Below are positions 9,401 through 31,130 of a stretch of DNA of 64,000 nucleotides, piece by piece. The DNA lies in NCBI RefSeq assembly GCF_008831545.1, contig NZ_CP044523.1:1426001-1490000 (forward strand), read 5' to 3'. The notes under the pieces are model-generated. The model saw only the letters and a list, made by a program, of their open reading frames with translations, was not told the DNA's origin and made no database searches. This DNA comes from Halorussus halophilus (GTDB taxonomy: Archaea; Halobacteriota; Halobacteria; Halobacteriales; Haladaptataceae). The translations under genes and the position numbers were made by a program. Numbering within the stretch: the first letter of the stretch is position 1; every line of letters starts with the position of its first letter.

Positions 9401-9543
9401 TCGATCCAGCCACAGTCGCAGATCAAGCGAGTTTGAACCCTGAGCAAAGAGTTCTGTTAGAAGTAGATTACAGATACAAAGTCGAAGCAGAAACTCAAAA
9501 TGGAATATTGTACCATCTCCGGTCATCTGAGAACGCAGAATAG
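6460..9543 (+). CDS. Large membrane protein, five N-terminal helices and a long soluble part (function unknown)
   Basis: A 1027-residue protein. Hydrophobic segments fall at about 28-52, 94-112, 124-145, 167-190 and 197-220. After them come an Arg-rich helix and a domain (about 280-340) with a D-G-Y-x-x-x-I turn, GDVQVSVQIGDRIKPNTTLVQI and similar text that recalls the pore-side domain of DUF2254 membrane proteins. The remaining 650 residues are acidic, mostly helical, and unknown to me. An internal ATG at 6493 is an alternative start. The gene is AT-rich for this genome and uses many AT-ending codons, unlike the core genes, which suggests transfer. It sits between a small repressor-like gene and an integrase. 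A defence role is possible but not shown. Confidence 0.65.
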   Translation: MTKGLGYFAISMTQLGPWGPFDIPNPSQFFTLFGTLLFLMLLTTVILWYFKFFLPPWNSIRSRATIGNLLSTGWISFRKRGTRAYLSIFGKNGLLTGPAFTLLILGISVWLLPEKNLGKNVPSQLLSLQIGLTGAGTIVIVFLIERIASRDLGKNILNLFLARSKVIPFVGFLLSAIGANAAIVHIVDASRPVETTGVILLSAASILAIGVFYWLTISLLLGHPFRELLASRLQLQVRQRIHRERLRAAADELVTSLSGIGVGQFTGSRRFLDSTTRFTGADMDGGKSDGYLSDINCNNIKSLTTQDRVENGGQGDVQVSVQIGDRIKPNTTLVQIGNSDGKPIDSVKLSKIFKVSKNSVWGTDDESFANSRSQLRQLAFEAIQEGNEPRFKSVCEIYEELVKTYYEDASEEGDWNWSLSIDPIGPLYNDLQEIHDQTIELEKPDFRTVVIDTIAATGFRWREARLYSPVSNALTRLRSCYVRSPSEIPHLEYPLLSFREILLGTDVTNADSLTEFKHLYRYNQRSLEELEWLLKNSLEKETILGFKRCWNLTKEYYSSERESAIRNEINRIRSNEDSEQEDPSDSVRIDVLEAIEEQFPQAIIDRQRVLFTAASALFHYYTESNLSEDTLNHIRDNAVMEYFDSVEVVVEGYSAIFSGPNDPLKLERWGDMFGPDDFGGAKAVQMTVGDWILDGYCLLLLANIKDGWVKDSGNLPSENPIPAEGPIVQREEEIINRLEEIPEQYDLDGLFEGMDNVNERILLARAFHELAAEQAEDEERQRIADSNLCQQHLNTYKSQFRNGFENRVSLRRACIEAGIIEGANSIGDDSQIRIIQWKNILSKQPFVDGFGQIRQDNATRDGTHFAEKVRTPLVTALRPTFDEVDLGSVEEVLTEIEYQIRNNDDIIAVVLGDLDIEGELWQRDTFEGAREGAVGYLLDIPVYRDSYEEFDAAIISSAETPTLYEQYEDDGEIPIIHVQEIDPATVADQASLNPEQRVLLEVDYRYKVEAETQNGILYHLRSSENAE

Positions 9544-9623: not shown

Positions 9624-10637
9624 TTAAATGTTATCTAAGTATTCCCTCCGCTGTTCCATCTTCTCACGTTCTGTGCGTCGGTCGTAGTGCTGTTCGATCA
9701 CTCGTTGGCTGACGTTTGCCCGATCACTAACCACCTTGTCGGGCATTTCGCTGTTAAGCGGGTGCGTGATGCTTCCGCGGCGAATTGCGTGTGGACTTAC
9801 GCTTGATGGGCAGCGGTAGGCAGTGTCGCGTTCTAGTGCCGAACACTCACCGATTTCTCGGTCGTGCGGGCACTCGGCGCTGTGGGTACAGGGTCGGGTC
9901 CATCGATAGACGTACTCTCGAAGCGTTGTCTTGCTCGTACGGCCCTCCCGCGACGCGAGTAGCGGCTCTCGTCCGTACTCGTCAGTGACTGATGGTCGTC
10001 TCTCGGCTAGCCAGTCGTCGAGTACGTCGCAGAGTTGATCTGAAAGCGCAACCATTCGCTCGCCCTTCCCCTGATTCTTAATCGGCGTCCCTGATTCTGG
10101 GCGATGACGAACCTTCACGCACTGATCGTCTGGATCATAGTCATCAACGTCAAGGGCATGCACGCCGCCGACACGCATCATCGTGTGCCACATAAGTGCG
10201 ATTGCGACGTGCTCAATGCTGGCGTACTCGTACTTCTCCAAGTGTGCGAGTATTTCCGAAGCGCGGTCGCTTTCCAGCATCACGTCTCGGGAGTTCTCGT
10301 CAGGGATGATCGACGGAGACAGTACCTTCTGGCTGAGATATTGTTCTACGCCGTCGATGGACTCTAGCCACCTGATGAATACGCGGAGCGTGTCCATCTG
10401 AGTTTTCTCACTGGCCTTGTTGAGGTTGCCGTCATCCCGCCGCCAGAGCCGATACCGATGGAGCTGGCGACCGTTGAGCGTGTTGAGGTTCTCGATATCC
10501 TCAACCTCGTTGTACCAGCGGACGAAGTGACCGAGTCGGTACTTGTGACCCTTGAGCGAGGCATCCGAGAGTTCGTTCTCCTTGTCTGCGAGGTACAGTT
10601 CGAGTGCGGTTCCTGCGTCGATTGGTTCGAGACTCAT
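9624..10637 (-). CDS. Tyrosine recombinase (phage integrase family) with a Cys/His insertion
   Basis: A 337-residue site-specific recombinase. An N-terminal SAM-like core-binding domain (about 8-98) precedes the catalytic domain. The catalytic residues visible are Arg155 in MMRVGGVHAL, His283 and Arg286 in SPHAIRRGS, His317 and the nucleophile Tyr318 in IEQHYDRRT. Between the middle and the HxxR motif, residues 250-276 hold a Cys/His cluster (C250, H252, C256, H258, C265, C276) that may bind zinc. The gene is convergent with the large membrane gene, 80 bases away. Its target site is unknown; it could serve the whole element ending at tRNA-Thr or only the left cargo. Confidence 0.85.
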   Translation of the reverse strand: MSLEPIDAGTALELYLADKENELSDASLKGHKYRLGHFVRWYNEVEDIENLNTLNGRQLHRYRLWRRDDGNLNKASEKTQMDTLRVFIRWLESIDGVEQYLSQKVLSPSIIPDENSRDVMLESDRASEILAHLEKYEYASIEHVAIALMWHTMMRVGGVHALDVDDYDPDDQCVKVRHRPESGTPIKNQGKGERMVALSDQLCDVLDDWLAERRPSVTDEYGREPLLASREGRTSKTTLREYVYRWTRPCTHSAECPHDREIGECSALERDTAYRCPSSVSPHAIRRGSITHPLNSEMPDKVVSDRANVSQRVIEQHYDRRTEREKMEQRREYLDNI

Positions 10638-11139: not shown

Positions 11140-12165
11140 CTATCTGAATCTCTCCGCGTCGCGCTTGCGCGCGATCACATCTTTTGGAGTTGCTCGTCCA
11201 TGCCTCGCTTTGTAGGCGTCGTGCAACTCCTGGGAGTACCGTGAAATCACGCTTTTCGAGGTTGGGCACACTCGACTTGCCGCCTCTGCCACCTCTGCTT
11301 GGGTCACGGTCTTTTCGTCGGTTAGCTTATCCGCCGCGTACAAAGTCGCCCCGGCCATGGCTACTCGTGACGTCCCCGGCCCGACTGGCTCGACGTCCGC
11401 CACACCGAGGAGATACCGCCCAACCCGTGCGAACTCCAACACCGTCTGCACGTCCAGTCCGTCGAACTCAGCCAGTACCGCGTCCAGGGCCTCGCCCTGC
11501 ACTGGCGGGTACGCCTCCACGAGTTCACATTCGATCCGGATCTTCCGGGCTGCGGCGCACGCTCGCTCGTGCGTCGATTTCGCGTACTTCGCCACGACCT
11601 CTGTCTCCCGAGGGAATCCCCGCCGTTGGGCCGCCAACAAGACTGCGCCTGCCGCGAGTGACTCCCAGGCCATCCGTCCACCCGGCAGCCTGTTCTCAGC
11701 CGCTTGCTTGACCAGTAGGCCCGCATCCGCCGACACGTACGTTGGGAGGCCCACGTTCTCACCGATGCTTTGCACATCCCGAAGTGCCTCGTTCAGTCGC
11801 CTGTCTCGCGCCTCCATGCGCTTGTCCAGTCGTCGCATCCGCCCGAGTCGTCGTTTCTTCTCCGCCGAGAGTGGCCGACCACGGCCATCTTTTCCGAGGT
11901 TGAATCGTGATCCAAGTCCGTGATTCACTCGAAACACTGTCGTCGGCTCAACCGCCCATTCCACGGGACCGCCACGCCGCCGTGGCCCGTGCGCGCTCGG
12001 CGACACGCCCTGGTCGATGTTGTCCGTCCGAACCACTAGTCCACAGTCTCCACACACCGTCTCGATGCCTCTCGCGATGAGTCGCCCATCGCACTCCGGG
12101 CATTCACTCGTCTTACTCTGCTGGCTGTACGAACCTTCTTTACCGAAGCTGTTGCTAGTACTCAT
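11140..12165 (-). CDS. Transcription initiation factor IIB (TFB), element-borne paralogue
   Basis: A 341-residue TFB. The N-terminal zinc ribbon has C22-x2-C25 and C38-x2-C41 (CPEC and CGDC). A B-reader/linker region follows (FRVNHGLGSRFNLGKDGRG), then two cyclin-like repeats (about 125-220 and 225-320), including AAGAVLLAAQRR and AMAGATLYAADK. TFB bridges TBP and RNA polymerase and binds the BRE. Haloarchaea carry many TFB paralogues; this one lies within accessory DNA and may direct transcription of element genes. The B-linker differs from that of housekeeping TFBs, which usually read more like WDEKDYGRSV-type text. The DNA upstream is an 850-base gene-free region with strong inverted repeats. 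Confidence 0.9.
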   Translation of the reverse strand: MSTSNSFGKEGSYSQQSKTSECPECDGRLIARGIETVCGDCGLVVRTDNIDQGVSPSAHGPRRRGGPVEWAVEPTTVFRVNHGLGSRFNLGKDGRGRPLSAEKKRRLGRMRRLDKRMEARDRRLNEALRDVQSIGENVGLPTYVSADAGLLVKQAAENRLPGGRMAWESLAAGAVLLAAQRRGFPRETEVVAKYAKSTHERACAAARKIRIECELVEAYPPVQGEALDAVLAEFDGLDVQTVLEFARVGRYLLGVADVEPVGPGTSRVAMAGATLYAADKLTDEKTVTQAEVAEAASRVCPTSKSVISRYSQELHDAYKARHGRATPKDVIARKRDAERFR

Positions 12166-14729: not shown

Positions 14730-15617
14730 ATGAGCCACCCGACGAGCGCAGACGAAGCGACACTCCGAACAAGCCTTCAGTCGCTCGCCGCGCAACTCGG
14801 CAAAACACCAACCGTCGTGGAAATGCACGAACAGGGCGACCACGACCCACACGACTACCTCGACGTGTTCGGCGGCTGGGACCACGCGCTCCAAGAAGCA
14901 GGTCTCGACCCAGACGAAGCGAAAGTCAAAATCACCGACCGCGAACTCCTCGTCGAACTCCAACGCCTCGAACAACAACTTGGACACACGCCGACACAAG
15001 AGGACGTGGCCGAACAGAGCGACCACTCCCATCAGACGTACAAAAACCGATTCGGAAGCTGGAACAACGCGATAGAGCAAGCGATGCTTCCAACGAACGA
15101 TATTTCCGAGAAGGATCTGCGACAGGAACTCGAACGGGTCGCCGACGACCTCGGCCACCCACCGACCGCCGAGGAAATGAACCAGCACGGCGAGTACGCG
15201 GCCGTCACCTACCACCGCCGATTCGGGTCGTGGCTCGACGCACTCAACGAATGTGACTTCGACACAACCCAGACCCAGATTACAGACACAGAGCTACTCA
15301 CGGAGATTGAACGCGTAGCGACAGAACTTGAGAAATCGCCATCTGAAACCGACTTTGAAGAACATGGCCGCTTCCATCCACAAACGTACACCAAACGATT
15401 TGGGTCGTGGAATCAAGCGCGAGAACTGGCCGGTGTGGCGGTCCCAACACAGAAAATCTCCGAACAGGAACTACTGGCCGACCTCGTTCGAATTGCCGAG
15501 AGTCTCGGGCACGAACCTGTACAAGCCGAGATAGATGAGCATAGCCAATTCGGGATTGCGACGTATCATCGTCACTTCAATTCGCTCGATGAAGCCCGAC
15601 GCCGCGCGCTCGACTAA
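14730..15617 (+). CDS. Protein of five homing-endonuclease-associated repeats
   Basis: A 295-residue protein made almost entirely of five tandem units of about 57 residues, each roughly L-x3-L-x2-(L/V)-A-x-x-L-G-x-(T/P)-P-T ... Y-x3-F-G-(S/G)-W-x2-A-(L/I). The units lie at about 10-62, 68-122, 124-178, 182-236 and 240-293. This matches the helical DNA-binding repeat that accompanies HNH and other homing endonucleases (PF18780-type) in haloarchaea. No nuclease motif is present, so it is a repeat-only protein and may bind DNA in a modular way. Its neighbours are a pilin and a primase. Role unknown. Confidence 0.75.
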   Translation: MSHPTSADEATLRTSLQSLAAQLGKTPTVVEMHEQGDHDPHDYLDVFGGWDHALQEAGLDPDEAKVKITDRELLVELQRLEQQLGHTPTQEDVAEQSDHSHQTYKNRFGSWNNAIEQAMLPTNDISEKDLRQELERVADDLGHPPTAEEMNQHGEYAAVTYHRRFGSWLDALNECDFDTTQTQITDTELLTEIERVATELEKSPSETDFEEHGRFHPQTYTKRFGSWNQARELAGVAVPTQKISEQELLADLVRIAESLGHEPVQAEIDEHSQFGIATYHRHFNSLDEARRRALD

Positions 15618-17165: not shown

Positions 17166-20100
17166 TCATTCTGGTTCGCCTCCTTGGTCGAGAAGTTCGT
17201 ATCCTGTTTCCGTGAGGGCGAGATCGGTGTAGAATTGGACACGAGTGCCGTCCACTCTGCGCCGTTTGGTATCGAACTCGATTACGTCCCCTAATTTCCG
17301 GGTGAACCAGCTTTTGGTCGTTCCATCGATACCCTGTTGGTCCGCCCACTTCGTGTACGCTCGGTACACTTCGTCCTTCGGGACGCGGGTGTCCTCGGTC
17401 TGCGTGATGTACATCGCAGCGAACGCCTCGATACCGTTAGCAGTCACATCACCCTCCAACAAGGCGTCCGCCTCGGCAGATGCCGGGATATCCTCTACTC
17501 CAGCGTCAGACTCGATACCCCATGACTCATTCTCCCGGCGGGGTTCGTCAGTCGAGTCACCCGTAGTCGGCCAGAGAGTGCCGTCCTGAACGCATGTAGC
17601 GAGCGGGTAGGTGAGTCCGTGCTGAAAGAGGAGTGGAGCGTCGTCGCTGGGGAGAATCAGGATAAGGTACTGGTCGCGCGAGAGTGGTGGGTCCGGAAGT
17701 TCAACGTCGGGGACGAACGGTCGTTTGACTGGAACCCACGCTGCTTCGAAGTCGTCTTTCGAGTCGTAGACTGTGGTCTCCCCTGGTTCATGCACCGTGT
17801 ACTGGCCGGTTTCACGGTCATGGCTGTAATAGGCTGGAACGCGGTCCTTCGACAGACTCTCGTGGTCGGGGATGCGGGCGAACTCCGTCTTACCGTCCGA
17901 GAGGACTCGCTCATCCTCGTCGCGGGTCCAGACTGTCCGGTTCGAGTCAGCAGTTCGTGGTCGAATGGCTGTCACGCCGCCGCGAGTCGTCGCGCCACCG
18001 CTGAAGGTCACGACCTCGTCGCAGTTGTAGAACTGCTCGGTTCCATCGGCGAGTTCTCGCCACGGTGGCGAACACATATTCTCGATTCGGTCAGCCCACT
18101 CTGTCGTCGTCTCGCCGGGGCGAACGACGAAGATGGGAATCCTGCCGTCCTCGTGGGCGCGGGCGAGATTTCGGAGGACTTTCGCCGGACGCTCTGGCGT
18201 CGTTGACTCAGCTTCGATAGTGAACGCAGTATCGTACTCGGGATGCGTAGCGGTGGCGTCGGGTTGCGTGCTTCCGTCCTGCTCAACGATTTGAACGCTA
18301 AATCCTTGCTCAGTGAGTACTCGTTCGGTGTCACTCAGGAGTGCATCGTGTTCTGAGCCTCCGGCCGACCGCACGTCGCCTGTATCGGGTTGGACGATGT
18401 CTTCGCCGTCCTCGGAAAGTCGCGTTACGACGGCGTCGTTCTGAAGGTCGATATCGACCTCAATGAGCCGTGATGTGTCGCGTACATCGGGGAACTCCAG
18501 CGGGTCAGTTTCGATGTCGAGGTGGTCGTGGTCGGTCTGGTCGAGGCGAACCAATAGTTCCTCGTCAACCGTGGGGGCGTCCACCCAGCCATTGGTCTCG
18601 CGCACACCCTCTCGGAGTTGGACGGCACGAATCGCTTCCGCCATCGTCTCGGCCAGCAACTTCTCCGGGTTCGCCGCGTCGTTTGAATCGCTGTACAGGA
18701 GGTTCTGGAGGATTTCACCGTCGGTGAGTCGGTCGGCTCCATACCGGTGGAGACTCTCTTCGATGACGCCCTCGACAGCGTTAGCTGATCGGAGCGGTGG
18801 GTATGGTGGGAACGACTGGATGCGGACTGGCTCGGAGTACTGACCTCCATCGAGTGGGAGTTTCGTCCACGCTTGATACTGGTCGGTCGAGATGAGGTCA
18901 TCGGCCGTATACCCACGGAATCGCTTCATTAGGAGATGGGCGTCGTCCACGTCGTTCACCGAGAACGCGAGGAGGTTGTCGCAGTTGTTCAGCATTGCCT
19001 TGCGTGTCTCCTCGTCGAATTGCGAGGGAAACTGGGACGCAAGCGTCACCGAGAGCCGCATCGATCGGGCGCGGGCGAGCATTGATTTGATGCTGAGGTT
19101 GTCGCTTGCGATGTCGTCGAACTCGTCACACAATACGAAGTACGGGTCCGGCTTGGTGTCCTGTTCGTAGGACCGCTGCTGGATGGCGCTCCAGAGGTTC
19201 CGCATCACGCCGAGCGCGACCATCGTCTTGATGTCCGTGTTTTCCACGGGCGTGGACACGATGACGATCCGGTCGTTCTCGATGATATCCCGGAAGTCGA
19301 TGGTGCTCTCGCGGTGGGCGATGATGCGTCGGATGACTGCGTTCTCGACCCACGACTTGATTCGTTTCAGGAGTGGCCGTACCGTCTCGTCGTCCATGCG
19401 GGCGATTTCGAGACAGAACTCCCGCACATAGGGGTCTTCTACGTCACGGGCGAATTCCTCGCGACGCTTGGCGTTCAGCAGCGTGAAGTACATATCGATC
19501 ACCGAGAACGGCTTCTCGGACTGCAGCATCGCCCGGCCCATCGACTCGGTGATCGACTCCATGTTCACGCCCCAGTACTCGTCCGTGTCGAGGATTGCTT
19601 TCAGGTTCTCGATGCGGTTCTCGATCTCGTTCTCTCGCTCAGTTGTGGTGGCACAGTCGGGGAGTTTGAGGAAGTTCAGCCCAATCGTCTTGCCGTGGTC
19701 GGCCGCACCGGGTTCGATCCAGACCACGTCGTCAAGGCGGTGGGCGGGGAGTTTCCGCAAGAGTTCACGGGAGTCACGGGCTTTCGGGTCGATGTAGACG
19801 AAGCCATACCCGGCGTACGCCCACTGCACCATCATGTTCAGTAGCTCCGTGGTTTTGCCGTAGCCCGTCACGCCCGTAATCCAGTTATGCCGGAACAGGG
19901 AGTCGAACCGAAGTGGTGCTTCGCGGAACCCGCGACGAGCGTTCTGGTCGTAGCCAACCCAGAGCGGGCCACCCGGATTGTCGACCCCAGACTCGAACAT
20001 CTCGCGGACGTATTCTCCTGCCACGGTGCCTTCATTCGCTGTTTCAGTTTTGATGGCTTTGCCACCGACTGCGACGGTGTCGAGAGCGGTGATGTCGTAC

Positions 20101-20312
20101 GTCTCGTCAAGCCGCGAGCAGGGTACGGCGTCTGATTCGGGAACAGACGCCTCCTCGTCATTGGTCTCAGTACGGGCTGTTGTCTCTCCCGGTGGTGTAG
20201 CCGGGTCAGATTGAGACGACGGATCGGAGTCGGCATCATCTTGTCCGAAGAATCGATCAAGCACCGTCTTTCCCTCCGAGTCCGGTTCTGTCCTGTCGAT
20301 TCTCGCTATCAC
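17166..20312 (-). CDS. VirD4/TraD-like conjugative coupling ATPase
   Basis: A 1048-residue RecA-type motor of the HerA/FtsK/VirD4 group. A disordered acidic N-terminus (about 1-70) precedes the motor. Walker A is GVTGYGKTT at 147-155, followed by a membrane-protein-like MVQWAYAGYGFVYIDPKARD. Walker B is YFVLCDEFDD at 391-400 and the ASQFPSQFDEETR sensor region follows near 425. Coupling proteins bring DNA-protein substrates to the T4SS channel. Beyond about residue 540 is a 500-residue extension with a nuclease/Mrr-like stretch (EQDGSTQPDATATHPEYDTAF with IEAESTT following, a D...E-x-E arrangement near 690) and a C-terminal wHTH-like end. No N-terminal membrane helices are seen; the DUF8128-like protein upstream may supply the anchor. 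The ATG overlaps the upstream gene by 56 bases. Confidence 0.8.
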   Translation of the reverse strand: MIARIDRTEPDSEGKTVLDRFFGQDDADSDPSSQSDPATPPGETTARTETNDEEASVPESDAVPCSRLDETYDITALDTVAVGGKAIKTETANEGTVAGEYVREMFESGVDNPGGPLWVGYDQNARRGFREAPLRFDSLFRHNWITGVTGYGKTTELLNMMVQWAYAGYGFVYIDPKARDSRELLRKLPAHRLDDVVWIEPGAADHGKTIGLNFLKLPDCATTTERENEIENRIENLKAILDTDEYWGVNMESITESMGRAMLQSEKPFSVIDMYFTLLNAKRREEFARDVEDPYVREFCLEIARMDDETVRPLLKRIKSWVENAVIRRIIAHRESTIDFRDIIENDRIVIVSTPVENTDIKTMVALGVMRNLWSAIQQRSYEQDTKPDPYFVLCDEFDDIASDNLSIKSMLARARSMRLSVTLASQFPSQFDEETRKAMLNNCDNLLAFSVNDVDDAHLLMKRFRGYTADDLISTDQYQAWTKLPLDGGQYSEPVRIQSFPPYPPLRSANAVEGVIEESLHRYGADRLTDGEILQNLLYSDSNDAANPEKLLAETMAEAIRAVQLREGVRETNGWVDAPTVDEELLVRLDQTDHDHLDIETDPLEFPDVRDTSRLIEVDIDLQNDAVVTRLSEDGEDIVQPDTGDVRSAGGSEHDALLSDTERVLTEQGFSVQIVEQDGSTQPDATATHPEYDTAFTIEAESTTPERPAKVLRNLARAHEDGRIPIFVVRPGETTTEWADRIENMCSPPWRELADGTEQFYNCDEVVTFSGGATTRGGVTAIRPRTADSNRTVWTRDEDERVLSDGKTEFARIPDHESLSKDRVPAYYSHDRETGQYTVHEPGETTVYDSKDDFEAAWVPVKRPFVPDVELPDPPLSRDQYLILILPSDDAPLLFQHGLTYPLATCVQDGTLWPTTGDSTDEPRRENESWGIESDAGVEDIPASAEADALLEGDVTANGIEAFAAMYITQTEDTRVPKDEVYRAYTKWADQQGIDGTTKSWFTRKLGDVIEFDTKRRRVDGTRVQFYTDLALTETGYELLDQGGEPE

Positions 20313-22716: not shown

Positions 22717-24711
22717 CTAGTCACTGGACTGCCCCCTCTCCTCTGCCGGTGAAGTGTCTCGATCCGGTTGCGAATCTCGTGAGTCGTCGGCTTCGATGAG
22801 TGCTTCCTCTTCAGGGAGCGCAGTGACGCGAAGCGGGTAGGTGCCGTCTTCGTCGATGTCGAGGAGCGCGGTACTGAATCCAAGTCCCTCTTTCCCGACG
22901 ACGGCGTCGCGGACGAATGCGGCCTGTGCGTCGGTGAGTCCGAGCGCGTCGGCGTGCGCTTGCGTGAGGTTGCCCTGGCGATGCAGGAGTTTAATCGAGG
23001 ACTGGTTGATGAACGTCTCCGCGCCGTCGGTATCGTAGAAGTCCGCGAGTTCCTGCGTGACGAAATGCAGGGAGAGATCGAGATGACGCGAGTGGCGGGT
23101 CGTCCGCTTTAACCACTCGACGCTCCCTGGTGACTCGACGAGGTAGTGGCCCTCGTCAATCGCGACGATAGTGTTACCGGTTGCGCCCTTGAGGCGTTCG
23201 TAGACCGCATCGTACAGTGGCTGCATCACGAGGCCTGCGAGCGCGCCATCTGAACTGCCGCCAAACTGCTGTAAGTCGAGGTAGATGACGCGACTGTCCG
23301 TGAGATCAACTTCGGTCTGGCCGTTCAGGAACGCGAACTGGCCGCCAGTCGTGAACGGTTCGAAGTTCAGGCGGAGGTCTTCGGCGTGGTGTTGCCACGT
23401 GTCGAGTTCGCCCGACGAGTAGTCCTCGCCATTGAGGACCGTTCGCGGGTCGGTGGCGATGTCGCCGAGAACGACACGCACGTCCTCGATGATTGGACTG
23501 TCATGGTGATGGGTCGTGGGGTCGTCTGTAATGCCGTTTCGGGCGTAGGCTTCCCGGACGCATCGTTCGAGGACTTGCCGTCGGTCGCCGAGTGGCGCGC
23601 CGATGTACGCGAAGAACGATTCGAAGAACGCCATTACGGCGCTAGTTCGCTCGGTGAATGGGCTGCCGGATTCGTTCTCAAGGAGGTGGGCGGGCGTTGG
23701 CCGTATTTCGAGGGGGTTGACCGTCCGTGTGCCGCCGATGACGTAGTGTTCGGCGTCAAGACTCTCGGCGAGGCTGGCGAACCCACCGACAGGGTCGATC
23801 ATGACGAGTCCAGTGTCGCGGTCTTTCGCCATTCGCCGAAGCAGAAGCCGCTTCGTGTCGTATGATTTCCCGGACCCAATCTCACCAGCGACCAAGACGT
23901 TGTAGCCGTTTTCACGGGCAAATCGGTCGAGATAGATTGGCGCGCCGGTCGTGGCGTGATACCCGTAGAGGACGCCGCTCTCCTCAATTGTCGTGCTCGC
24001 GGCGAACGGGAATAGCGCGCCTACTGCCTGCCCGAGCATCGGCGTCGTTTGTTTGAGTTCGTCTTTCGCGACCGGACTCCCTGTGACGAGCGCGTCGTCC
24101 TGCCGGTAGGCTGCTGTCTTCGTCGTCAATCGCTGGCGTTCGAGTTCCCCACGAATGCTCGTGGCCACGCTTTCGACTTGCTCCTCGGACGTGCCACGGA
24201 TGGTCAGATAGACGCCGACGTTGAGGACGCGCTGGGCGTTCTCCTGCAGTTGTGCGTACACCGACTCGTGGTCACGGATCCGACGCTCTGTGACTGTCGT
24301 CTTTGCCGACCCCTGCTCTTGAGCCTCGATGTGGTCGACTTTGAGTGACTTAATCGCGCTCTCGAATTGAAGAAGTGACGACCGAGGGTCCTCTGGGTCA
24401 GCGTAGATTGTCACGTCCACGTCGGCACTTGGATGCGTGCAGACGCGGTCGAGCAGTCCCGGTGACGCAGACTCCGGAAATCCGGTGACGAACAGCGTCT
24501 TCACCCATCGATCCCCTGTCCGTGTGGTCCTTGATTCGAGACGTACGCCCGATGGGGCCACTTGAGTCGCATACGTTGCCCTGCGAGTCCCCTCCCGGCC
24601 ATTGCCAGAAGACGAGTCATCGGTATCTTCGTCGGTGTCAGTAGGGGTGTGAGTAGCTGTCTCGGCGGTACGTCCGGGGATGAAGTCGGTGAGTCGGGAG
24701 AGGATGTTCAT
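22717..24711 (-). CDS. VirB4/TrbE-like conjugation ATPase
   Basis: A 664-residue protein of the CagE/TrbE/VirB4 family. The N-terminal part (about 55-250) is the end of the VirB4 N-domain (VTGFPESASPGLL, ADVDVTIYADPEDP). The motor has Walker A GEIGSGKS at 276-283, MIDPVGGF near 305, YLDLQQFGG near 480 and Walker B TIVAIDEGHYL at 514-523, followed by RHSRHLDLSLHFVTQE. VirB4 powers T4SS pilus assembly and substrate transfer. Part of the N-domain appears to be on the preceding protein, whose stop overlaps this ATG (ATGA at 24708-24711). It is the most diagnostic gene of the cluster. Confidence 0.85.
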   Translation of the reverse strand: MNILSRLTDFIPGRTAETATHTPTDTDEDTDDSSSGNGREGTRRATYATQVAPSGVRLESRTTRTGDRWVKTLFVTGFPESASPGLLDRVCTHPSADVDVTIYADPEDPRSSLLQFESAIKSLKVDHIEAQEQGSAKTTVTERRIRDHESVYAQLQENAQRVLNVGVYLTIRGTSEEQVESVATSIRGELERQRLTTKTAAYRQDDALVTGSPVAKDELKQTTPMLGQAVGALFPFAASTTIEESGVLYGYHATTGAPIYLDRFARENGYNVLVAGEIGSGKSYDTKRLLLRRMAKDRDTGLVMIDPVGGFASLAESLDAEHYVIGGTRTVNPLEIRPTPAHLLENESGSPFTERTSAVMAFFESFFAYIGAPLGDRRQVLERCVREAYARNGITDDPTTHHHDSPIIEDVRVVLGDIATDPRTVLNGEDYSSGELDTWQHHAEDLRLNFEPFTTGGQFAFLNGQTEVDLTDSRVIYLDLQQFGGSSDGALAGLVMQPLYDAVYERLKGATGNTIVAIDEGHYLVESPGSVEWLKRTTRHSRHLDLSLHFVTQELADFYDTDGAETFINQSSIKLLHRQGNLTQAHADALGLTDAQAAFVRDAVVGKEGLGFSTALLDIDEDGTYPLRVTALPEEEALIEADDSRDSQPDRDTSPAEERGQSSD

Positions 24712-25859
24712 TGTCGGGGTTCCTCTGTGTCAGCGGGAGTCGTGGGGTTAGTCGGCGAACGGGGCGTTCCGGGGTCAGGGTCAGGTTCGGAAGTGTGGTC
24801 ACTCAGGACGACGGGTGTGGTTCGGAGATGTGGGCCAGCGTCGGGGTACGCGGTTCGCTGCCCGGACCAGTATTCTTCGACGAGCGTGACGAGGTCGGCC
24901 GCTGGCACTGTTTGGACGCCGATATCCTCGACACTCCGCAATTGGTCTGAAAGATGGGAGCGTCGCTCATCGAGAAGCGCGCGCTGTCGTGCTTCGATGG
25001 CTTCCCGGCGGTCGTCCCGCAGGAGTACATCGGCGAACAGCGATGCGAGTGGGTCACCGACGAGTGGAATGGTCGCGAGGCGACTAACCCACGTATGCTC
25101 CTCAAGACTGACCGACTCGATTCCAACCGGGACGAGAACGTGGTATTGGCGAACACTCGTCCCACGCTCGCGGAATTCCTGTGGCCGACGCCGACGGTAT
25201 ACGTCGACGATTTCTGCGAGTGCCGGTGTTGACCTGACGTCAGGGTCGGTTCGTCGGTCGTCGTACGCGGCGGTCAGTTGCGCGGGGTTGACGCGACGCG
25301 CCGACGAATGAATCTGGACGGGATAGTCGAGTGTGTTCAAGACGGCTCCGAGTCCGCGTGCCGACCGCTCCCACTGGTCGCGGTCAGCGAGCGCGAGATT
25401 CGCTGGCTCGATGCGGACTGCACCGACGAGCGTCTCGTCCCGACGCCGAATCGCGTCGGCTTCCGGTTCGACTGTCTGAATCTGCGTTAGCTTCCGCGCG
25501 TCTGGCGGTGGGTCGGTGGCTGAATCGGTGGTTTCGTTGGTGAGTGTCATGGTGGTCTCGCGTCGATGATACGTGATGAACGACCGGAGGAGGCCAAGCG
25601 GCGTCCGGTGGTCCGGACAGATGTGGACGTATGCACCAGCAACGCCGAGGACGAGTACTGCGAGCGCGACGCCGACGAAGAAGCGGCCCGTCGCGATGAC
25701 GACTACTTCGAGCGTCACCATCGCGGCGAGGAGTGCTGGGACGAGAAAGAGGAGGTCCGAATTGGAAATCTCTGCAAACGCGAGGAAGCCAGAGTCAGAC
25801 CCCACGTCGTCGAGGATACGGCGCTCCGGGTCGTCGCCCTGTGGACCAAGGCGCGTCAT
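24708..25859 (-). CDS. PrgI-like membrane protein fused to a VirB4 N-terminal segment
   Basis: A 383-residue protein. Residues about 35-80 hold two adjacent membrane helices (VPALLAAMVTLEVVVIATG and FFVGVALAVLVLGVAGAYV) and a short P-rich turn, RTPLGLLRSFITYHR, as in PrgI proteins of Gram-positive conjugation. The rest (about 110-330) reads like the N-domain of VirB4: ADAIRRRDETLVGAVRIEP, DYPVQIHSSARRVNP and RQYHVLVPVGIESVSLEE. In Gram-positive systems PrgI is a separate small protein and this domain belongs to VirB4. The fusion and the split are therefore unusual. It overlaps its neighbours by ATGA at both ends (25856-25859 and 24708-24711), so translation is coupled. Confidence 0.65.
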   Translation of the reverse strand: MTRLGPQGDDPERRILDDVGSDSGFLAFAEISNSDLLFLVPALLAAMVTLEVVVIATGRFFVGVALAVLVLGVAGAYVHICPDHRTPLGLLRSFITYHRRETTMTLTNETTDSATDPPPDARKLTQIQTVEPEADAIRRRDETLVGAVRIEPANLALADRDQWERSARGLGAVLNTLDYPVQIHSSARRVNPAQLTAAYDDRRTDPDVRSTPALAEIVDVYRRRRPQEFRERGTSVRQYHVLVPVGIESVSLEEHTWVSRLATIPLVGDPLASLFADVLLRDDRREAIEARQRALLDERRSHLSDQLRSVEDIGVQTVPAADLVTLVEEYWSGQRTAYPDAGPHLRTTPVVLSDHTSEPDPDPGTPRSPTNPTTPADTEEPRQ

Positions 25860-27733
25860 CGTGGCCCACCGTCCTCACTGCGTGCGTCGAAGACAGCATC
25901 ACGACTGATGCCTGTTTGTTCGGATGTACTCGTACCCCACTCCTCGCCCGCAACGGGTGTCGCGTCGTACAGGACGCCGTCGCTTTCACCACGGTGGTAG
26001 ACACCCGGATGGTCGCCATCGGAGTCGTAGGCCGCCGCAAAGCGGTCGTGTTCTCGAACGACGAGTTCTCGGGTCTGTCCACTAGATTCGATTGGCTGGA
26101 ATTCTCCATTAGAGACGTACCCCGGCTGGTAGCGCTGTCCATCCGGCATATCACGCTGGTTCTCAACCAGAACCTGATTCGTCTCATCAACGGCACCAGC
26201 AGCTGTACTCGTGCTTCTGTTTGTCGTCGCGCCCACGGCTGTGTTCGTGGTGCCGGGACGACCGCCGGTCGGCGTCCCAAGTGTAGCGATATCGCTGGAT
26301 TGGCTGGTGTGGCCCTCTGTTTCAAGTGCGCCGACTGTGCTGGCAGTCCCACTACTCTTTACGCTACTGTGGGTAGACGCCATGCCACCAAATTGAGCAG
26401 ATGGGCTGCGAGAGCCAACCGTCGCGCCGGTCGCTGAACCAGCACCGACGCTTGCTCCGCGACTCGACATGGAGGCTTTGCTGGCGAGAGTTCTTGCTCC
26501 CGATTTCGCCCGTGAGTACATCGCGGCACCGCCGAGTCCGGCCATGACACCACCGGCAGTCCTCGCTGCTCGCGACCCCAAAAGCATCCAGAGGGTCGCC
26601 ACCAGTGCCGCGAGTTGTGTGACGAACGTGACGGCGGCAAACGCAAGCGTGCCAGCGACCTCCGCAAAGCCACCGACTGCGACTGCGCTCTCAACGAATC
26701 CCATTGTGCCGCCTGCGATGTAGCCACCGGCACCGAGGACAAGTGCTGCTGGGAGCGGGAAGAACGCGGCGCGAATGAAGATATCCCATCCGGTTTGGCC
26801 GAACTGTCCTATCGTCTGTAGGACGCCCCCAGTGTCGAACAGCATGAGCGCTGAGAACACTGGCAGAAACACCATGAACGTGAGACACAGGACGTAGGCC
26901 ATGAGGGTCGTGACGAGCAGAATCGTCACGACGGCCGCCGTCGCAACCCACAGCAAGCCTGCGAGGAGTCCTGTACCGAGGAGCGTTCCAATGCCGGATT
27001 TCGGGCCTGCAATCAGCTGGTCGCCGCGTGGGGCGACGGCGAGAATCAACGCGTTCGCGAGGTGCAGGACGAACGCGCCCAGCCACCACGACCCGATGGT
27101 GAGCACGAGATTTCGTGCGAGGTTCTGCTCGATCTGGAAGCCATGGGTGGCGAACGTGGCGTCCGGTCGGAATCGGCTGGCGAGTGCGACGCCAACGCCG
27201 ACCACCCACACGAGGAACCCAAGCGGCAGGCCAACTGTGGTCCACCCGTGGTATGCGCCTACCAGCGGCTGGTTCGTCGGTGGTCGGAAGACCACGATAA
27301 CGCCATCGCTCTTCGGCACGGGTCGCCGGAGGATTAACTCGAGCGTACTGCGGGCGATGTCCTGTGTGGCGTCGAGGGCGCCACCGAGAATACTTCGTTT
27401 GGTGTTCTCGATGACGTTACAGAGTGCACCCCGAATCGGTCCTTTCCCAGCACACGAGGCATAGGAGTTAGTATCCTCCGACGAACTAGTCGAGATGAGG
27501 ACGCTCGACGCGGGCAATCCCTGGAACGGCGTTGATTCAGGTGAGGCCGTTGGGTGAAGATTCGTGGTTGTAGTCGTCGTGTTCGCGCTAATCTCGTTTG
27601 GTGGTCTGCTGGCTGGGGCTGCAAGGGCAGGCGTCACGAGGCTGGTCGTGATGAGTACGAGAGTAGCAAATACGACTACCCGGTGCCGCGCTCGTACTGT
27701 CGGAGCGATGTCGAAGCCTGTCGTCGGGAGCAT
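25856..27733 (-). CDS. VirB6/TrbL-like multi-pass channel protein
   Basis: About 625 residues from the ATG at 27733; the frame runs on to 28099, but that part lies under the next gene. The start MLPTTGFDIAPTVRARH leads into a signal-like VVVFATLVLITTSLVTPALA. At least six membrane segments follow between about residues 150 and 420, including VGLPLGFLVWVVGVGVALA, TVVTILLVTTLMAYVLCLTF-type text and AALVLGAGGYIAGG. The C-terminal 200 residues are Ser/Gly/Thr-rich and polar. This layout, long polar tail after clustered helices, is that of VirB6/TrbL inner-membrane channel proteins. Stop and next start overlap as ATGA. Function by analogy only. Confidence 0.6.
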   Translation of the reverse strand: MLPTTGFDIAPTVRARHRVVVFATLVLITTSLVTPALAAPASRPPNEISANTTTTTTNLHPTASPESTPFQGLPASSVLISTSSSEDTNSYASCAGKGPIRGALCNVIENTKRSILGGALDATQDIARSTLELILRRPVPKSDGVIVVFRPPTNQPLVGAYHGWTTVGLPLGFLVWVVGVGVALASRFRPDATFATHGFQIEQNLARNLVLTIGSWWLGAFVLHLANALILAVAPRGDQLIAGPKSGIGTLLGTGLLAGLLWVATAAVVTILLVTTLMAYVLCLTFMVFLPVFSALMLFDTGGVLQTIGQFGQTGWDIFIRAAFFPLPAALVLGAGGYIAGGTMGFVESAVAVGGFAEVAGTLAFAAVTFVTQLAALVATLWMLLGSRAARTAGGVMAGLGGAAMYSRAKSGARTLASKASMSSRGASVGAGSATGATVGSRSPSAQFGGMASTHSSVKSSGTASTVGALETEGHTSQSSDIATLGTPTGGRPGTTNTAVGATTNRSTSTAAGAVDETNQVLVENQRDMPDGQRYQPGYVSNGEFQPIESSGQTRELVVREHDRFAAAYDSDGDHPGVYHRGESDGVLYDATPVAGEEWGTSTSEQTGISRDAVFDARSEDGGPR

Positions 27734-27794
27734 CAGATTGACTGGCGAAAATCTGGATTGTTGTACTTCCGTCCGATGAGGTGGGAGTACGTGG

Positions 27795-28271
27795 TTAGAA
27801 CCATGGCGTGAGTTGCGCGCATTGGGCGGCGTTGAAGCCTGCGGCACCAGCGGCCTGTTCGCCGAGGACGATGACGAGGCCGAAGATCGGGCCAGCGACC
27901 ATCGCCATCGTACCCGTTTGCCGGTGTTCACTCGACCGCTCCGGGTTCCGTGACATCCCGGCACGGGCGTGTTTGAAGCCACCGTAAAGTAAACCTCCAA
28001 GGAAGAGTACGCCAGCACCAGTCCGCGCTGCCCATTCGAACAGGTCGATAGCGGGCGTACCACAGAGGCCACTGCCACTTGTCTGGGCGGCTGCAACACT
28101 CGTCATCGCGACGAGAGTGAGTATCGCGGGACCCGCCGGCGTCAGAGCACGGCCAGCAGCTGTGAAACATTGAGTGACGGCTTCACTTACTTGGTCATGG
28201 ACATGCGTCTCGGAGTCCTCGGTTGTTTGTCCAAAAGTCGACTTCTCACGGTGTAGGTTCCTGTTTTCCAT
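27795..28271 (-). CDS. VirB2/TrbC-like pilin or small channel subunit
   Basis: About 158 residues from the ATG at 28271 (MENRNLHREKSTFG); the frame continues to 28511 through promoter DNA and is not used. A long leader ends in GRALTPAGPAILTLVAMTSVAAAQ, a plausible signal with cleavage after A-A-A. The mature part has two hydrophobic segments, AARTGAGVLFLGGLLYGG and MAMVAGPIFGLVIVLGEQAAG, joined by a basic loop KHARAGMSRNPERSS. VirB2-type subunits have this two-helix form. It is first in the T4SS operon, 62 bases from the channel gene. Two palindromes lie in its promoter. Confidence 0.55.
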   Translation of the reverse strand: MENRNLHREKSTFGQTTEDSETHVHDQVSEAVTQCFTAAGRALTPAGPAILTLVAMTSVAAAQTSGSGLCGTPAIDLFEWAARTGAGVLFLGGLLYGGFKHARAGMSRNPERSSEHRQTGTMAMVAGPIFGLVIVLGEQAAGAAGFNAAQCAQLTPWF

Positions 28272-28275
28272 TTCT

Positions 28276-28300
28276 CTACGATTCGTACTACGAATCGTAG
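28276..28300. promoter_or_regulatory. Palindromic operator at the T4SS operon start
   Basis: CTACGATTCGT, 3 bases, ACGAATCGTAG: 11-bp perfect arms. It lies 5 bases upstream of the operon's first ATG (28271, minus strand), in the right place to block transcription or early translation. The divergent winged-helix protein is the obvious candidate to bind it. Confidence 0.6.
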
Positions 28301-28315
28301 AACGATATATCCTTC

Positions 28316-28341
28316 GTATAGTAGAATAGAGTTTACTATAC
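28316..28341. promoter_or_regulatory. Second inverted repeat in the divergent promoter region
   Basis: GTATAGTA at 28316-28323 and TACTATAC at 28334-28341 with a 10-base spacer. The region 28272-28417 is A/T-rich, contains TATA-like runs for both directions, and has several TAGAAT boxes (near 28323, 28383 and again near 28672). Confidence 0.5.
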
Positions 28342-28417
28342 ATAGAGAAAAAGACCGTAGTACTAATGGCCTGAAGATATGTAGAATAAAATAGCGTGCG
28401 TGTCGAGATAGGAGCGA

Positions 28418-28636
28418 ATGGAACTGACAGCTCTTGACGAAGCAATCCTTGACGAACTCGGCGAAGGAGCACGCACGCAAGGATTCCTTGTCGATGCGAC
28501 TGGGGAACCACGGTACAAGGTTCACGAGCGGCTAAAGTTGCTCGTAGCGGCGGGGTATATCGAGAATATCCACGAGAATACCGCGCTCTACGAATTGCGA
28601 ACTGATTCTAAAACCTCCGATGAGGATTCCGATTGA
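28418..28636 (+). CDS. Winged-helix transcription regulator (PhiH1-repressor-like)
   Basis: A 72-residue protein. The whole length fits a minimal winged helix: helix 1 LDEAILDELGEG, helix 2 TQGFLVDATG, recognition helix PRYKVHERLKLLVAAG, wing YIENIHENTALYELR. Haloarchaeal virus and plasmid repressors of the PhiH1 type have this size and form. It is divergent from the T4SS operon across a 146-base region with two palindromes, so it probably represses its own and the transfer operon. Start taken at the ATG that opens MELTALDEA. Confidence 0.75.
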   Translation: MELTALDEAILDELGEGARTQGFLVDATGEPRYKVHERLKLLVAAGYIENIHENTALYELRTDSKTSDEDSD

Positions 28637-28700: not shown

Positions 28701-31130
28701 TTAGTAGTTCACCGTAATTGAGCCCGAACCAGTGTCAACTACTGCGCTGTGGTCGAAATCTACAGCTGCTTTTCTTTGCAGACCTTGCATCAGGTTTGAG
28801 AATTGTTCTTCATCCGCAAGAACCAGTCCTGTTTCCGAAGGAAGAACATCTCTCCACTCTATATCGATCTGGTTTTTCTTCTCCAGATTTTCTAGCTCGT
28901 GAAGTCCAGTGAGGTATTTCTGGCTTGCTTGAAGGGACGCCCAGTATTCAAAGCTAGCTGGCAAAACGACTTTGAAACGGGACTCATACCGGGAGAGGTC
29001 AATTCTGTCGGCAAGGTCTCCTTCTTGAATCTTTTCTGGAGTCACCCCGTTCTCAATAGCGTTCAGAGAGGGAACGATTGCGACCTCTTTTTTCAGTCCG
29101 ACTTGCTCACCACGACTGTATATTTCTCCTCGACGTTCAAGCCGGTCTATCTCCTCATTGATTGCCATCTCAGTGGCTAAATCCTCTTGAGGGACCCGAC
29201 CAGGGTTCCAGAACATGTTTCTTTGAACAGAATCTTCTGAAACTCTCCTCTCTTGCATCTGCTGGTAGACCATCCTGATGAGCTCCGTTCTGGGAAGTTC
29301 TCCTCTTTGTTTCAGTGAATTCTTTATCAGCTGGTTCCATTGGGATAGCTCCTGCTTCAAGGGGTACGCGGTAACACCGGCTGCCTCCGCTAATTGCAAA
29401 AGAGTCTCGTCTGCAGAGCAAAGAGGTACTTCCCGTTTCTTAGCGATGCGCATCAATGCCTGATCCACCGATATGTTGTCTTCTGTGTCAACAGAGTCTT
29501 CAACGGGGACAACCTCGAAATCAAGAATTCCTTTCTCTGATAGCTCCCTCAACGCCGTCAGCTCTTCAAGACCAAGCTTTCCACGGGAAGTATCTTGGTC
29601 TACTTGCCGATGCACTTCCTCTAACACTACCTCGGGTACCACAATGGTTGTATCATACAGATCCCCTTCCGAGACTAGCCGAGTAATGATCTGTGCGTCA
29701 ATAATACTGGTGTCTGCAACAAACTCCGAAAGGTCACTCGGAAAAAGCGGGGCATCAATACCCTCGACTTCTTCACTATTACTAGCAAATCCCCCGACGG
29801 CTTCGATAATTGCATCTTGATCCGGCGGTGCACGGGCTTCTTCTCTCATCTGATCTATAACCGTAGACTGTTGAATAGGGGTCTTTTGAACCCTCTCACC
29901 CCCAAACTCTCGCCAAGATACATCGCACCCCATTTCTGACTCTATTATATCGACAAGGGCCTCAACGTCTTCTTCGAATTCCCTCTTCTTTCTATATTTC
30001 TCTCCGTGAATCACCCAGTACTTGTGTGCGAAAAGCCGACGTCGAATCTCTCTCCTCCCATCCAGACTGTGGAAGGCAAATCCGTCATTCGCTGCACTCC
30101 ACCCCGAGAACTGTTCATGATCCCTGTCCCAGTCCGCTGTTTCTTGGGCCACCTTATTGGTCAAGAAAGGTGCTTCTGGTACACGAAGAGCAGTATAGAA
30201 GTCATATACTAGAGAAATATCTGCTTCTGTGGAAACTCGAACGAAGCCGTGGTAGTCATCTTGGTCTTCATTGAGAACTATCTTTGTGACTGATCCGACT
30301 TGGGCGAGTAGTCCTCTCCCACTTGGGTCCCGGATTGTACAAGATTCGGCCCATCCGAGAACTCTTCCCCGAAGAGATGAAGCTATCTCGTTGGATGAGA
30401 TTTGATACTCAGAAGCTACGACCCGTTTGTTCTGGTGGACATATACCTTCTTTACCTCAGGGAGGTCGTCATTCGAGAGTGGTTTTGCGCGGATAACCTT
30501 GTCAAACTCCACTTCATCCTCCTTCTCTTGTTTACCTTCCTGAAAGTTCCGGTACGTGAGGGAACACTCATATTGGAAGGCAAGAACTAGCGTCCGTAGA
30601 ACATCGAAACTCACGATGACGTCGGGATCGTCCAAGGATAGAGATTGCTCTGCTGCCTTCGAAGCTAAAAGGGAATCACGTTCACTCCAAGCATTTCCAA
30701 AGGCATCGACGATACCCTGGTCCTCATGGCGCGCTATGATTTCCCTTAGGGTACTCGGCGGAGACGCAGAAGTATCCCCAAGTTCATGGAGTTCGACGAC
30801 TGTACGCGCTAATACTTCTTCGTGCCCTTCTGATTCCTCTGGTGTGATGTTGCCTGGCTGATGACCAGGACCGACAGGAAAAATATCTGTCTTTATGTTC
30901 CCCGAATCATCCGCGTACTCTTCCGGAATCTGCTCGGAAATGCGACCAAGAACAGGAATTTCGATCAGCTCTGAGGAAGGACCATCTACAGCGACCATTC
31001 CAGATTGGCCAAAAGCGACCTTCCAATCTGGACTTTCAAGTTCAAAGCAGTCAGAAAGCCAGGTCTCCAAGTTCTCTAACGTAGTCCTTACTCCCTCCTC
31101 TATGGGTAAATAGCCCAGAGCTCCACTCAT
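28701..31130 (-). CDS. Large PIN-domain protein
   Basis: An 809-residue protein. A PIN nuclease domain at about 470-600 is clear: ADTSIIDAQ (Asp473), VPEVVLEEV (Glu504/505), SVDQALMRIAKKR (Asp556) and CSADETLLQLAEAAGVTAYP (Asp574), giving the acidic D-E-D-D set. The N-terminal 470 residues and the C-terminal 200 are unknown to me; the C-terminus has a wHTH-like stretch around VYQQMQERRVSEDSVQRN. PIN domains usually cut RNA. The length and central placement are unlike VapC toxins (about 130 residues). The gene has AT-rich composition and its own TATA (near 31160). It may be defence cargo. Confidence 0.65.
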   Translation of the reverse strand: MSGALGYLPIEEGVRTTLENLETWLSDCFELESPDWKVAFGQSGMVAVDGPSSELIEIPVLGRISEQIPEEYADDSGNIKTDIFPVGPGHQPGNITPEESEGHEEVLARTVVELHELGDTSASPPSTLREIIARHEDQGIVDAFGNAWSERDSLLASKAAEQSLSLDDPDVIVSFDVLRTLVLAFQYECSLTYRNFQEGKQEKEDEVEFDKVIRAKPLSNDDLPEVKKVYVHQNKRVVASEYQISSNEIASSLRGRVLGWAESCTIRDPSGRGLLAQVGSVTKIVLNEDQDDYHGFVRVSTEADISLVYDFYTALRVPEAPFLTNKVAQETADWDRDHEQFSGWSAANDGFAFHSLDGRREIRRRLFAHKYWVIHGEKYRKKREFEEDVEALVDIIESEMGCDVSWREFGGERVQKTPIQQSTVIDQMREEARAPPDQDAIIEAVGGFASNSEEVEGIDAPLFPSDLSEFVADTSIIDAQIITRLVSEGDLYDTTIVVPEVVLEEVHRQVDQDTSRGKLGLEELTALRELSEKGILDFEVVPVEDSVDTEDNISVDQALMRIAKKREVPLCSADETLLQLAEAAGVTAYPLKQELSQWNQLIKNSLKQRGELPRTELIRMVYQQMQERRVSEDSVQRNMFWNPGRVPQEDLATEMAINEEIDRLERRGEIYSRGEQVGLKKEVAIVPSLNAIENGVTPEKIQEGDLADRIDLSRYESRFKVVLPASFEYWASLQASQKYLTGLHELENLEKKNQIDIEWRDVLPSETGLVLADEEQFSNLMQGLQRKAAVDFDHSAVVDTGSGSITVNY

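Follow-up and report, generated by a model that had tools for sequence, protein, structure and literature searches.

A winged-helix gene and a conserved palindromic site in the probable control region of a haloarchaeal transfer operon

Introduction

How is the transfer operon of a probable haloarchaeal mobile element controlled, and by which protein? The question is raised by a short stretch of Halorussus halophilus DNA in which a gene for a small winged-helix protein (wHTH) stands back to back with genes resembling those of type IV secretion systems (T4SS). The regulation of archaeal transfer operons is little described, and no report of a regulator of a haloarchaeal VirB4-type operon was found in the literature searched on archaeal and haloarchaeal conjugation control, most subscription papers lying outside this search. 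An earlier note on this DNA had pointed to two palindromes between the divergent genes and had seen in them a virus-style switch controlling transfer. Here, we examine the locus within the 64-kb window, that is, the whole stretch of 64,000 nucleotides analysed, and compare it with related loci in other haloarchaea.

The divergent region and the transfer operon

The region extends over exactly 146 bases (28272-28417), from the start codon of a minus-strand gene at 28271 to that of the wHTH gene at 28418, in agreement with the divergent region of this length claimed previously. On the minus strand, the operon codes successively for a 158-aa protein, a large protein, a 383-aa protein, a VirB4-like ATPase, two more proteins and a coupling-protein-like ATPase. 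The first product (27795..28271, minus strand) is a small membrane protein, syntenic in relatives, with a signal-like segment and two hydrophobic segments. It matches no family in Pfam, PHROGs or NCBIfam, its structure model is of low confidence (pLDDT 56), and it is possibly a VirB2-like pilin, which is a guess from its sequence. A match of its profile to a solved structure, the SAKeCEref chain, was weak, with no single stretch passing, and was set aside. The large protein (25856..28099, minus strand), probably a membrane protein, was recognised from the open reading frame listing and synteny; its GTG start is probably placed too far upstream, since the frame overlaps the preceding gene. The 383-aa protein (24708..25859, minus strand) is likewise syntenic in relatives and has no family match.

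Both the VirB4-type ATPase and the coupling protein of a T4SS transfer operon were recognised by Pfam. The 664-aa VirB4-like transfer ATPase (22717..24711, minus strand) matches the TraG P-loop domain above the cutoff; it also matches the NCBIfam VirB4-like CD1110 family with an E-value of 4.8e-50, yet under the curated cutoff. The 1048-aa coupling-protein-like ATPase (17166..20312, minus strand) reaches 24.6 bits with TraG-D_C (cutoff 22), its matches to T4SS-DNA_transf and TrwB being below cutoff. The same frame carries a C-terminal Pox_D5-like domain, so that the coupling protein appears to be fused to a primase-type domain. No relaxase family was matched among the subset of window open reading frames scanned with Pfam, NCBIfam and other profiles; archaeal conjugative plasmids are reported to lack recognisable relaxases (PMC9905601).

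Profile matches identified a tyrosine integrase (9624-10637) and a TFB-like protein (11140-12165), and a primase-polymerase is also encoded near the operon; the presence of these three genes makes a mobile element likely. Element boundaries were sought by means of tRNA-Thr, but this approach was dropped, as no att repeat of the tRNA-Thr end is present in the window and the genome holds a single exact copy; the ends of the element were not found. The 146-base gap is probably the control region of an archaeal type IV secretion-like transfer operon carried by a probable mobile element.

Several other features of the locus and genome deserve mention. Directly behind the wHTH gene, an 809-aa protein (28701-31130) with a weak PIN-domain match and a low third-position GC (0.47) is possible cargo. 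The frame at 14730-15617 contains five HNH_repeat repeats, which are associated with homing endonucleases, and a 1027-aa frame at 6460-9543 has a third-position GC as low as 0.38 and no Pfam match. A second VirB4-type operon is found in the same genome (locus L095, G000:C1 about 2703600-2709900), with VirB4 46% and the pilin-like protein 31% identical; within the stretch fetched, it has no relative of the 72-aa wHTH protein.

The 72-residue winged-helix protein

The wHTH gene (28418..28636, plus strand) encodes a 72-aa protein, predicted to be a repressor, with its recognition helix at residues 32-44. In the AlphaFold2 model, helices at residues 5-14, 21-28 and 32-44 are followed by strands at 48-52 and 57-60, with pLDDT values of 93-97 over residues 1-60. 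No helix follows the wing, no dimerisation helix is present, and the tail (residues 64-72) has a pLDDT below 50. With high confidence, the protein is thus modelled as a bare winged helix made of three helices and a two-strand wing, which bears out its earlier description as a minimal winged-helix protein.

Its family assignment is less straightforward. Against Pfam MarR_2, the protein scores 20.5 bits, below the cutoff of 27, and it does not qualify as a MarR family member; 15 of 19 aligned family members match MarR_2, with E-values up to 0.01. Among its best fold matches are members of the ArsR/SmtB and MarR families (M. smegmatis SmtB, ZitR and AdcR, for instance), none with an E-value below 0.001, and the wHTH profile has no match by sequence among solved structures. 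Members of the MarR and ArsR families possess dimerisation helices; the 72-aa protein thus resembles MarR/ArsR-type repressors in fold but differs from them by the absence of these helices. All 25 plasmid records matching the wHTH protein bear haloarchaeal genus names.

Palindromes and promoter elements

The first palindrome, previously described as an 11-bp palindrome at 28276-28300, proved to be real and longer than stated. In this segment, 12-bp arms are inverted around a single central nucleotide, and the perfect arms reach 13 bp at 28275..28301 (no strand assigned), so that the earlier figure understates it. Palindrome 1, the predicted operator, consists of two tandem 11-bp dyads, TACGAtTCGTA-c-TACGAaTCGTA, with TACGATTCGTA at 28277-28287 and TACGAATCGTA at 28289-28299, 12 bp apart; each arm is itself a 5-1-5 palindrome. 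None of 2000 dinucleotide-preserving shuffles of the 146 bases produced arms of at least 13 bp at gaps of up to 3, the longest being 11 bp, obtained once, and palindrome 1 is not a chance occurrence. Across the window, inverted repeats with gaps of up to 10 include three whose arms measure 13 bp and one whose arms measure 14 bp; since such long-armed repeats occur elsewhere, the case for palindrome 1 rests on its conservation. The two dyads are the only exact TACGAWTCGTA sites in the window, and the genome contains no second copy of palindrome 1 within three mismatches. A regulon extending beyond the gap was considered and rejected, the window's 12 further TACGAWTCGTA sites carrying two mismatches and being scattered.

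Next to palindrome 1 lies the predicted TATA element of the minus-strand operon (28303..28312, minus strand), which reads CGATATATCC on the plus strand and GGATATATCG on the minus strand and to which a promoter role is tentatively attributed; the start of the conserved dyad lies 22 nt further downstream. For the wHTH gene, an AT-rich segment (28384..28392, plus strand) is a weak candidate TATA element, proposed from sequence.

Palindrome 2 (28316..28341, no strand assigned) is present as the earlier note described it, namely, an 8-bp inverted repeat with arms GTATAGTA and TACTATAC and a gap of 10. It is not clearly above chance, because arms of at least 8 bp at gaps of up to 10 were found in 4.65% of 2000 dinucleotide-preserving shuffles of the gap, and its symmetry is kept in none of the four orthologous gaps; on this account it was rejected, as a palindrome, as another conserved operator. 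In two related loci (L058 and L059), a third exact operator copy occupies the position of its right arm; palindrome 2 may therefore be a decayed or degenerate extra operator site.

Conservation in close relatives

Four close orthologues of the wHTH protein, sharing 80-90% identity with it, are found in four further genera, spread over two further families. They come from Halogranum amylolyticum (locus L027, the same place as G464) and from genomes G255, G097 and G335. In all four loci, the divergent operon is kept in the same order, and VirB4 is 78-81% identical; the stretch available for L027 ends within VirB4. Together with the window, these loci form group A of our own sorting, which was based on the recognition helix and on gap comparison.

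In all five group A loci, and hence in five genera, the distance from the operon's TATA downstream to the start of the dyad is exactly 22 nt. The 13-mer CTACGAWTCGTAG is exact in the window and in L058, L059 and L060, and carries one mismatch in L027. Even the most diverged gap, that of L060, with 71 of 146 positions identical to the window, retains one dyad intact, and between the window and L058 the operator is identical at 20 of 23 positions, compared with 94 of 146 over the whole gap. Only the window shows perfect symmetry over 27 bp; in L027, L058 and L059, a well-preserved dyad stands next to a decayed one, and L060 has a single dyad. The further exact dyad copy of L058 and L059 lies farther out, where palindrome 2 has its right arm. 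Among 384 genomes of the order, the tandem 20-mer was detected in three, always at this gap, and its reversed control in none; G335, which has the regulator and one dyad, is missed by this pattern. Since group A consists of five homologous elements, some of the conservation seen in the operator reflects shared ancestry. Loss of the palindromes from related elements had been named beforehand as an argument against the switch; palindrome 1 is conserved, whereas palindrome 2 is not conserved as a palindrome.

The wider family and its operator classes

The pairing of wHTH and VirB4 genes extends to more distant relatives. A VirB4 homologue is present in the divergent operon at 11 of 12 loci of a set of wHTH relatives, and in many such operons it is 24-41% identical to that of the window. 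Among loci L058-L094, some of which are the same places as members of the 12-locus set, a wHTH match was obtained in 34 of 37, and half of them (17 of 34) also show a VirB4 match within the stretch fetched; many other wHTH relatives do not have VirB4 as a neighbour.

Group B, with wHTH proteins about 50% identical and a common PRYKxH recognition helix, served as a held-out test of the 13-mer. The latter is found with one or two mismatches in three of four loci (p <=0.003, 300 shuffles), these three being close relatives of one another, and with three mismatches in the fourth (p 0.033). In group C, the A-type 13-mer occurs with two mismatches in three of four loci, and these matches would fall within the reading frame if translation began at the upstream start. 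Haladaptatus relatives with RSRQYxH or YTRQYIH recognition helices carry different inverted repeats with TTACGSACA arms in the same gap, and these arms abut TATA-like elements on both sides. Across the 28 family genomes examined, the pattern TTACGSACA-N10..38-TGTSCGTAA yields 13 sites, 12 of them beside a wHTH gene; the thirteenth (G026) falls inside an ABC-transporter frame and was rejected as an operator. Of the 15 Haladaptatus wHTH loci of these groups, 12 match the pattern exactly and three are off by at least one base in an arm. The D/E consensus was derived from the same loci, and its match there is therefore no independent test. The longest operator-like arms of the set, 20 bp and perfect, were noticed in the Haladaptatus locus L038, about -113 to -59 upstream of the wHTH gene. 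In groups F, G and H and in L074, neither operator consensus was matched at p<0.05, despite the same gene layout.

These comparisons suggest that the operator class switches together with the recognition helix, and thus with the regulator class, across relatives. As the classes change together only a few times, the trend is suggestive and does not amount to statistical covariation.

Proposed mechanism and alternatives

With regard to function, we propose, with a probability of about 0.7, that the wHTH protein represses the transfer operon by binding palindrome 1 over the start point, and that it limits its own synthesis. The pairing of protein and site is suggested by the layout, with a regulator divergent from the operon and a conserved palindromic site in their common gap, by the position and conservation of this site, and by the match between regulator class and operator class. 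The 72-residue protein would bind the tandem TACGAWTCGTA dyads and, sitting just downstream of the TATA element, where transcription of the operon is expected to begin, would block RNA polymerase and keep the transfer genes repressed. Without a dimerisation helix, it therefore most likely pairs only on DNA; the tandem dyads would favour such an assembly, and neighbouring dyads could give cooperative, dose-dependent control. Autoregulation of the wHTH gene is proposed as a further step. In the Haladaptatus relatives, the arms directly adjoin a TATA-like element on either side, which would suit repression of the two divergent genes alike, whereas in the window there is no operator copy near the probable TATA of the wHTH gene, and autoregulation would therefore be weaker there. 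Binding, repression, autoregulation and cooperativity, as well as DNA transfer by the operon, are each advanced as a proposal. At a more general level, there is good support for a regulator–operator module, of an ordinary type, that belongs to an archaeal transfer operon.

The same operator could serve activation, the wHTH protein helping to bring the transcription machinery to its own promoter or to that of the transfer genes. Archaeal activators bind directly upstream of TATA, and the Haladaptatus arms are placed in this way; in group A, the dyad lies downstream of the operon's TATA in five of five loci, over the expected start, which suits a block and not recruitment, and makes activation unlikely. 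It is also rather improbable that the palindrome is bound by another protein, such as a host regulator, the TFB-like protein encoded nearby or the transfer machinery, with the wHTH protein as a bystander, given that the tandem site is present in 3 of 384 genomes, exclusively next to this class of wHTH, and that relatives differ in operator type according to their recognition helix.

An RNA hairpin in the operon leader, acting as an attenuator or a translation block, could be imagined from the 13-bp perfect inverted repeat just ahead of the start codon in the window, but the long pairing is confined to the window, the relatives keeping the primary sequence of an 11-13-bp dyad. Archaeal transcription starts about 25-27 nt below TATA; with such a start, much of palindrome 1 would be absent from the transcript, and we regard this explanation as very improbable. 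Palindromes and AT-rich DNA are usual at origins, and no relaxase or origin was identified in the element, but a transfer or replication origin with a nick site or iterons, in place of promoter elements, accords so poorly with the fixed 22-nt spacing to TATA, with the location of the site between divergent start codons in the groups examined and with its change in sequence along with the regulator that we give it hardly any credence.

Returning to repression by the wHTH protein, a broader and doubtful extension can be formulated for the whole family of bare winged helices. These proteins might assemble on DNA along dyad arrays, with dyads 12 bp apart and half-sites that alternate every 6 bp, resulting in a cooperative nucleoprotein block at the start point and a repression that is steep in element dosage, and might have switched between two operator geometries while the type of target operon stayed constant: in one, tandem dyads cover the start point; in the other, inverted repeats with long arms abut both divergent TATA boxes. 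If so, transfer would be induced on entry into a repressor-free recipient (zygotic induction), and cells already holding the element would be immune.

With the gene, a 23-bp site and a family of natural variants in hand, the control of archaeal conjugation becomes directly testable, and the predicted repressor–operator pair may serve haloarchaeal genetics.

Comparison with known systems

In bacterial conjugative plasmids, KorA and KorB are repressors encoded near transfer genes and acting on palindromic operators; their folds differ from that of the wHTH protein. As for haloarchaeal viruses, the likeness expressed as a virus-style switch holds for the layout, with a small regulator divergent from the transfer operon and palindrome 1 as its likely operator, and does not go beyond it. 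Homology to Rep (ORF48) and Imm (ORF55) of phiCh1 was rejected, with hhalign probabilities of 1.1% and 9.3%, respectively. The nearest named viral sequence, from phage ChaoS9, is a weak match (47% over 49 residues) and also ranks first by structure in the viral library. In IMG/VR, one contig with a wHTH relative was found, which also bears a VirB4 homologue. The tandem pattern occurs there in four contigs and was discounted, none having a tblastn match to the wHTH or operon proteins of the window; in two contigs (L118 and L119), runs of a ACGAATCGT-like repeat mimic the operator pattern without related proteins.

RepR of phiH1 and Rep of phiCh1 are described as small winged-helix repressors encoded back to back with the repressed gene, the promoter region of which they bind (PMC4284463). 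This layout is similar to that of the wHTH gap; the target differs, viral lytic genes in one case and a transfer operon in the other. The closest described analogue of the 72-aa protein is Stf76 of pSSVx, a 76-aa bare winged helix without a dimerisation element, reported to be a monomer in solution and to dimerise on DNA (PMC4027180). Stf76 has two sites in its own promoter, one of which partly overlaps the BRE (PMC4027180); the sites of the ORF80-type archaeal plasmid regulators read TTAAN7TTAA. The Stf76/ORF80 type thus shares the bare winged helix with the 72-aa protein, but these proteins are crenarchaeal and target their own promoter, whereas the haloarchaeal protein would act on a transfer operon.
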